Shown in pieces: positions 55,243 to 56,917 of a stretch of DNA of 64,000 nt (its first letter is position 1; each line of letters starts with the position of its first letter). The stretch comes from Armatimonas rosea. GTDB lineage: Bacteria > Armatimonadota > Armatimonadia > Armatimonadales > Armatimonadaceae. The stretch covers positions 558,001-622,000 of the forward strand of contig NZ_JACHGW010000001.1 of the NCBI RefSeq assembly GCF_014202505.1, in the 5' to 3' direction. The notes beneath the pieces are model-generated. The model worked only from the letters and a program-made list of their open reading frames with translations. It had not been told where the DNA came from and made no database searches. Made by a program: the position numbers and the translations under genes.

Positions 55243-55360
55243 GACGGTAAACCTCGGGGCTTTGGGGCGAGCAAGTCGCCGCCTCGCTTCGCTTCGCTCA
55301 AATTGTACCGACGAGGCACGAGGAGGCGGCCGAAGGCCCCAAAGCCGGACGTTTACCGTC
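55243..55360. repeat. Large inverted repeat unit
   Basis: GACGGTAAAC (55243-55252) pairs with GTTTACCGTC (55351-55360), and GGCTTTGGGGC pairs with a GCCCCAAAGCC segment inside, over a GC-rich centre. The gap 55158-55465 holds the terminator, this unit, and a T-rich stretch near 55410; no gene is seen. Confidence 0.8.
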
Positions 55361-55465
55361 CTGGCTTGCCGGACGATCTCCGTCCTGGCGGCGATTTCCG
55401 ACAGAATAACTTTTTTTTCGTGTCGTGATCCTTTTTGGCTTCTGGTTGCGCCTACTTATGTGAAG

Positions 55466-56917
55466 ATGCAAACTACCGACCCAACCAATGAGCTTGAGCT
55501 GTTCCGTGCGGCACGCCAGGGGGACCACCGTGCTGCGGCAGGACTCATGGAGCGCTTCCGGCGGCTGGCAACCACGACCGCACGGCTCGCACTCCGAAAC
55601 ACCGACGATGCCCAAGATGTGGCTCAAGAAGCCCTTGTCTACGCGTTGCTCCACCTGCACCAGTGCCGCGACGAGAGCAAGTTTGGGCCGTGGCTCCGGC
55701 AGATCACGTTCTCGCTGTGCGCCGACTACCGCCGTCGCCGAGGCACTCGCTCGCTGGGAGAGCCAATGACGGTCTTAAATGAGGCGACGGAGGAGGCGCA
55801 CTTTGCCGAGCGCATAACAATCCAGAGTGCACTCGAAAGCCTCGGGGAGCCCCATAAAACCACGGTTCTGCTCCACTATGTCGGGGGCTGGTCGGTAGAG
55901 GAAACGGCCTCGCTTCTTCATGTGCCCATCAATACCGTGCGGAGCCGCCTCATGGCCGCGAAGGCCCGCCTCCGCACCGATCTGATCACGCTGATCCCGG
56001 ATAGAAAGACAAAAATGTCCACCCTGACCACAACGACGCTTACAGAAAACCACTCAACGCTTCTCTACAGCGCCTTTCCCGGCGCACGAATTCTCTCCCT
56101 GGAAGACTCGCCTGAGCCCTGGATGCCCTTCCGTTTCCGCATTCGTCTCGAAACCGCCGACGGCCAGGAAACGACGGTTGAGCTGCGCGACGACCTCACC
56201 CCTGAGCGCGCCGCTCTGCTGCCCGCTCTGGAGCAGGCAGGGATTCCTGGCCCAAGGGTTCTGGCGGGCCCGATAGCCGACGGACGCGGTGGGTTTCTGA
56301 GCCTCTGCCAGGCGGCACGCGGTGAGAACCTACTGCTCTGGGCGCTGGGCGGAACCCCGCACCGGCTGCGGCTTGCCACCGAGCGCGCCTTCGATGCGAT
56401 TGACGCACTCCAAGCGGCGACGGCAACCCTAGAAGCCAATCCCGCGACCAAGAATCTCCCGCGCAGGACGCTTACCGATGAGGCTGAGGCGATTATCAAC
56501 GCTGGTGGGCCGTGGCTCTCCGACGGCTGGTTTCTCACGGCGCTGGAGAAGACCCGCACTGCCATTGGCGAGCTCACCGACCCACTTGTCTATACCGACA
56601 ACACCCACTTTTTCCCCAATTTCGTGCGGATTGCGACGGAGACTGGTCCGGTGGTCGAGCTGGTCAACCCGTTTGGGCACTTTGGCGATCCGCTCCTCGG
56701 GCTGGCGATGGTCTGGGTCTACGACTGCTACCCCTTTGTCCACACGGGCTTTGTCGAGCAGTTTCTCTGGCGGCGCGGCAAGACCCAGCGCGACTTTGGC
56801 CCTCGGCTGGCGCTCCGTGCCCTCCAGACCCTTCAAAAAGAGACCCAGCCCGGTGACACCGGCGAGTACCCGAGCGCCCTCCGCGGCTGGGTGGAGCAGG
56901 GCCTGAGCTGGCTGTAG
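55466..56917 (+). CDS. ECF sigma factor fused to an aminoglycoside-phosphotransferase-like domain
   Basis: A 483-residue fusion. Region 2 of an ECF sigma factor lies at about 10-90 (NTDDAQDVAQEALVYALLHL, FGPWLRQITFSLC) and region 4 at about 115-170 (LGEPHKTTVLLHYVGGWSVE, INTVRSRLMAAKARLRTD). From about 184 a second domain begins with its own methionine (MSTLTTTTLTENHS) and ends with YTDNTHFFPNFVRI, then VELVNPFGHFGDPLLGLAM, which follows the order of the catalytic loop and GDP(L)xDLA motif of APH/choline-kinase-like proteins, but His-Gly-Asp is changed to Tyr-Thr-Asp. The fusion, or two genes joined by stop loss, is unusual. The start at 55466 is chosen for the sigma domain; no clear promoter is seen. 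Confidence 0.75.
   Translation: MQTTDPTNELELFRAARQGDHRAAAGLMERFRRLATTTARLALRNTDDAQDVAQEALVYALLHLHQCRDESKFGPWLRQITFSLCADYRRRRGTRSLGEPMTVLNEATEEAHFAERITIQSALESLGEPHKTTVLLHYVGGWSVEETASLLHVPINTVRSRLMAAKARLRTDLITLIPDRKTKMSTLTTTTLTENHSTLLYSAFPGARILSLEDSPEPWMPFRFRIRLETADGQETTVELRDDLTPERAALLPALEQAGIPGPRVLAGPIADGRGGFLSLCQAARGENLLLWALGGTPHRLRLATERAFDAIDALQAATATLEANPATKNLPRRTLTDEAEAIINAGGPWLSDGWFLTALEKTRTAIGELTDPLVYTDNTHFFPNFVRIATETGPVVELVNPFGHFGDPLLGLAMVWVYDCYPFVHTGFVEQFLWRRGKTQRDFGPRLALRALQTLQKETQPGDTGEYPSALRGWVEQGLSWL

Follow-up and report, generated by a model that had tools for sequence, protein, structure and literature searches.

A predicted APH-fold, catalytically degenerate tail on an ECF sigma factor of Armatimonadota: probably a one-protein sensor-switch

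The window, a stretch of 64,000 nucleotides from Armatimonas rosea, carries a gene in which an ECF sigma factor continues in frame into a long C-terminal domain. A gene for an RRM protein lies upstream on the plus strand, and a gene for a DUF1559 pseudopilin-like protein lies downstream on the minus strand. The ATG-started frame encodes 483 residues and contains no internal stops, and its start at 55466 is backed by conserved promoter spacing and by the alignment of relatives. The initial annotation had placed ECF regions 2 and 4 in the N-terminal part and had described a sigma factor running without a stop into a domain of about 300 residues; the Pfam matches and the open frame agree with both statements. 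In particular, region 2 is followed by region 4 with no other sigma region, as in ECF (group IV) factors, and the protein scores above the cut-off of the NCBIfam sigma70-ECF model. The parts of the gene are as follows:

55466-56917, plus strand: complete fused gene, an open frame of 483 amino acids plus stop
55544-55744, plus strand: sigma region 2, residues 27-93 (PF04542, Sigma70_r2, 1.1e-8)
55820-55972, plus strand: sigma region 4, residues 119-169 (PF08281, Sigma70_r4_2, 1.6e-11)
56015-56914, plus strand: predicted APH-fold tail, residues 184-483, catalytically degenerate (homology through tail-only relatives, fold matches in the PDB)

Rfam gave no match to a structured RNA in the gene region. 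Just 5' of the gene, positions 55243-55389 hold a palindromic REP/MITE-like intergenic repeat, of which about 40 more copies, roughly 71-95% identical, are found in the same genome.

The fusion was sought in close relatives and then in 291 genomes of the phylum. Nine complete single-frame sigma-tail fusions, that of the window included, were found in eight Armatimonadota genomes (G000, which is that of the window, G008 with two copies, G017, G029, G108, G119, G121 and G126). Thus, a search for other ECFs with the same tail, which the initial annotation had recommended, yielded seven further genomes, and none of the nine copies has a stop between the domains. With an extra domain conserved C-terminal to region 4 on one polypeptide in eight genomes, the protein belongs among the ECFs with C-terminal extensions. 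In a further genome, G004, a region 2 piece and a region 4-plus-tail piece lie on separate contigs, most likely as the result of an assembly break. Matches to the tail occurred in 13 of 397 related genomes scanned (291 of the phylum and probably about 100 outside it), and all 13 were marked as belonging to the same phylum or closer. No second copy of the tail was found in the window's own genome, and no relatives were found in viral contigs and plasmids.

Among the nine fusions, mean pairwise identity is 54% for the tail and 50% for the sigma part, and the correlation between tail distances and sigma distances is 0.87. Set against other Armatimonadota ECFs, the sigma parts of eight fusions group together with good support, and the clade of all nine, which takes in the diverged member from G121, is less firmly supported. 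Judged from these comparisons, sigma and tail are co-inherited and both are constrained. Two sigma-less tail copies, degenerate or truncated, were also seen (L056, G029:C157:7848-8156; L091, G122:C52); one has internal stops, and the other breaks off near a contig end. On the two G008 contigs (L050, G008:C822; L051, G008:C199), flanking genes are 96-99% identical and the fusion proteins only 73%, and one of the contigs bears an additional nuclease/transposase-like gene. In a single MAG, such a pattern may reflect a strain mixture, a duplication or an allele swap.

Residues 184-483 gave no match in Pfam, NCBIfam or PHROGs, and their sole match by sequence in the PDB was at chance level. The identity of the tail was reached through free-standing relatives from G008 and G002 (L054:1126-2930 and L055:4961-5965), which the window tail matches at about 2e-19 and which themselves match the Pfam APH family PF01636 at 4e-14, above the Pfam cut-off; more tail-only relatives occur as pieces in G076 and G077. 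In L054, the start of the gene overlaps the stop of the gene that precedes it, which has no recognised family. A full-length AlphaFold2 model, made from a shallow alignment of three sequences, has a mean pLDDT of 55, and the isolated tail of one relative reached a pLDDT of 39. When the low-confidence full-length model was submitted to Foldseek, APH(4)-Ia, APH(2'') and APH(3') ranked top in the PDB for the tail, and the front of the model matched ECF sigma structures. Alignment of model residues 192-483 with 3w0m by VIA-align gave a Z of 9.5 and an rmsd of 11.8; because this rmsd is large, the lobes of the tail are not well placed in the model. Homology through intermediates and the structure search of the model together confirm the tail as a predicted APH-fold domain, homologous to PF01636 without a direct Pfam match. 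The APH-like fold first proposed for it is therefore upheld, also by the structure prediction that had been called for, and the relatives carry the fusion rather than two genes.

The catalytic centre of this domain is degenerate; its two motifs and the best-conserved stretch of the tail are as follows:

56591-56623, plus strand: degenerate catalytic loop YTDNTHFFPNF, residues 376-386, aligned with SSGDYQPGNFL of the tail-only relatives
56657-56692, plus strand: degenerate metal-binding motif ELVNPFGHFGDP, residues 398-409, aligned with YLDFEKAGFEDP, with Asp replaced by V400
56687-56761, plus strand: DPLLGLAMVWVYDCYPFVHTGFVEQ, residues 408-432, the stretch of strongest conservation in the tail, with residues invariant in the fusions

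The active site of the tail-only relatives reads SxGDYQPGNFL...GYLDFEKAGFEDP; their motifs are near-intact (SxGD..N, DFE), with GD...N and DFE kept. The window protein does not carry the signature of active APH enzymes (HGDxxxxN ... DxE/DFE), as T380 and V400 stand in place of its two aspartates and neither position is a conserved acid. T380 takes the catalytic Asp position in an ungapped alignment, and V400 takes the metal Asp position after two extra residues are allowed for. In L090, whose loop is of equal length, ungapped alignment places Leu at the catalytic and Val at the metal Asp position. Across the fusion family, the catalytic Asp position is occupied by T, L, M or H and the Asn position of the catalytic loop by N, Q or G, and a search of this loop for an invariant acid found none. 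The initial annotation had taken Tyr-Thr-Asp for an altered His-Gly-Asp. This assignment has to be given up: the Asp of that triplet, D378, lies two residues before T380, and relatives have Ser, His or Asn in its place. No member of the family retains either catalytic Asp, and the sequences therefore favour a pseudo-kinase. That part of the earlier proposal of a pseudo-kinase regulating the sigma factor stands, and the regulation itself, like the ligand sensing also suggested there, is something we infer.

Upstream of the gene are two promoter-like boxes:

55426-55431, plus strand: -35-like box TGATCC of the conserved TGATCY-N16-GCGCCT-like motif
55448-55453, plus strand: -10-like box GCGCCT of the same motif, 12 nt before the ATG

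The motif was the best pair in a free search for hexamers spaced 14-18 nt apart, with a score of 99 in the real set compared with 78.2 ± 1.1 (maximum 81) in 60 shuffled sets. It precedes all nine complete fusion genes, matching at 9 to 12 of its 12 positions, with 5-12 nt between its end and the start codon. A pair of boxes with 16 nt between them is typical of ECF promoters, and transcription of the own gene is common among ECFs. As an ECF-like pair of boxes stands before a gene of this kind, autoregulation via TGATCY-N16-GCGCCT is the natural reading of the sequence, and a transcript from the predicted promoter would begin at or very near the ATG. A regulon search with the motif (strict in 20 genomes, with up to two mismatches in five fusion genomes) revealed no second recurrent gene; apart from the promoter of the fusion gene itself, almost every match lay within a long frame. 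A single visible target is odd for a sigma factor, since the motif precedes no other recurrent gene, and another sigma could drive this promoter. Inspection of neighbouring genes recognised no anti-sigma gene at any fusion locus and no conserved neighbour or partner across the loci, save between the two G008 copies.

The domain make-up with intact sigma regions 2 and 4, the degenerate active site, co-inheritance, the orphan context and the promoter motif are the observed base of the model that we propose. We consider it reasonably probable that the fusion is an orphan, self-regulated ECF with a catalytically degenerate APH-fold tail as its on-board regulator; it is probably a one-protein sensor-switch. 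The pseudo-APH tail would bind a small molecule or a partner in the former substrate/nucleotide cleft, and binding would alter the contact of the tail with sigma regions 2 and 4. As a consequence, the sigma part might be released for core RNA polymerase or, if control runs in the opposite direction, held back from it. The active sigma would then transcribe its own gene from TGATCY-N16-GCGCCT, provided that it is the factor that reads this motif, which would close a positive loop. Moreover, the conserved M184 may let ribosomes produce a free tail.

This last step concerns one codon at the junction:

56015-56017, plus strand: junction methionine M184, candidate internal translation start (Met in 10/10 homologues, peak of low mRNA structure)

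The methionine with which the tail was said to open is kept in ten of ten homologues and is the sole invariant linker column between -12 and +12, whereas Met accounts for 2.2% of the residues at 101-300. In a folding test devised after the conserved Met had been noticed, the mRNA at the junction was less folded than synonymous recodings, with a mean z of +1.2 at M184 itself and of +1.5 five codons further downstream (background over 84 positions: mean -0.05, SD 0.40); the four offsets with the highest values fell between -5 and +10. An SD-like AAGGA(G) lies 6-8 nt before the codon in four copies, compared with 0.96 expected from synonymous recodings, and SpaO/SpaO-short is a documented pair of full-length and internal-start products (PMC13059759). 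These signals are suggestive of an internal start that makes a free tail. However, the window's own copy shows no clear SD and a z of -0.19, control ECFs with other tails also show a rise in z, weaker (up to +0.8) and somewhat upstream of the junction, and slow codons at the domain border could yield the same signal; alternatively, M184 could be a vestigial start codon. That the gene has two products, the full-length sigma-tail protein and a free APH-like domain acting in trans, is therefore a tentative proposal. The free tail might serve as a decoy, a dimer partner or an anti-sigma-like titrator, and would supplement the on-board regulator rather than replace it. With similar caution, one gene may be imagined to give two regulators, an ECF with an in-cis pseudo-phosphotransferase sensor and a free M184-started sensor that tunes it in trans, within a self-activating loop with a dedicated promoter.

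It is unlikely that the tail has no regulatory role and acts as a scaffold or in localisation, while transcription from the promoter of another regulator alone determines sigma activity. Such a tail would fit a locus whose candidate self-promoter we infer and whose sigma-tail interface and ligand are hypothetical, but the tail is conserved like the sigma part and co-inherited with it, and most described ECF C-terminal extensions regulate their sigma factor (PMC8999054).

Slightly more doubtful still is a tail that remains enzymatic, as an atypical APH phosphotransferase that uses a rearranged site to modify a small molecule or the sigma part. Besides the APH fold, this idea draws on two invariant residues proposed as those used, R241 on the predicted third strand and E398, two residues before the lost metal Asp position, and on the strongly conserved block near the pocket (DPLLGLAMVWVYDCYPFVHTGFVEQ), in which DCYPFVHTG and the next VEQ are invariant in all nine fusions. 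Against it stand the replaced metal Asp, the variable catalytic Asp and Asn positions and the lack of an invariant acid in the loop; an active APH enzyme was set aside, as the catalytic residues are lost in all fusion members. Since R241 and E398 are retained, nucleotide or ligand binding by the pseudo-kinase is possible, and so, to some extent, is residual nucleotide chemistry in the tail. Finally, although the second half opens with a methionine like a separate gene, a merger of two genes through sequencing error, misassembly or recent stop loss can be ruled out for practical purposes, because the same in-frame joint recurs in eight genomes of several families, among them G108, a single-contig assembly of 5.2 Mb for which misassembly cannot account.

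If the on-board regulator is indeed a pseudo-phosphotransferase sensor, a fold of antibiotic or metabolite kinases has been turned into a receptor coupled to RNA polymerase, and this in a little-studied phylum that is rich in ECF-tail fusions. The TGATCY-N16-GCGCCT promoter would be a cheap reporter in the hunt for the signal, and the junction methionine makes a second product a testable prediction.

ECFs with C-terminal extensions are known, as the initial annotation remarked, and have been reviewed; those with regulatory extensions usually lack an anti-sigma factor, and the review names SnoaL (ECF41 and others), TPR (ECF42), WD40 (ECF57), Cys-rich (ECF238) and anti-sigma-like extensions, none of which has an APH fold (PMC8999054). 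A literature search for ECF together with APH, with the 2021 ECF classification outside its scope, found no description of the combination. The APH-fold extension would thus be an addition to the known class of ECFs with regulatory extensions. Like the fusion, ECF41 factors (SigJ, Ecf41Bli) are orphan ECFs whose soluble C-terminal domain is presumed to control them through a conformational change; their extension is SnoaL-like, whereas the tail of the fusion is a 300-residue domain of predicted APH-type kinase fold, and the window protein has no SnoaL match. ECF42 and ECF57 share with it a long C-terminal extension and the lack of an anti-sigma factor, but their tails are of the TPR and WD40 kinds, for neither of which Pfam gives a match in the window protein; relatives of both kinds are common in Armatimonadota. 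The APH/choline-kinase-like phosphotransferases (PF01636) have a fold homologous to that of the tail, which differs from them in having lost both catalytic aspartates and in being joined to a sigma factor. In the ECF43 pair EcfP-PknT, a kinase-superfamily protein is likewise tied to an ECF without an anti-sigma factor; there, however, the Ser/Thr kinase is a separate active enzyme working in trans, whereas the APH-type domain of the fusion looks inactive and is placed in cis. Armatimonadota also hold many other single-frame ECFs with long, unrelated tails (L068, L069, L075, L079, L081, L188-L190 and L192-L197), including WD40, TPR-like and bifunctional nuclease domains and others that are unnamed. 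To judge from these sequences, one-piece sigma switches are a phylum-wide habit.
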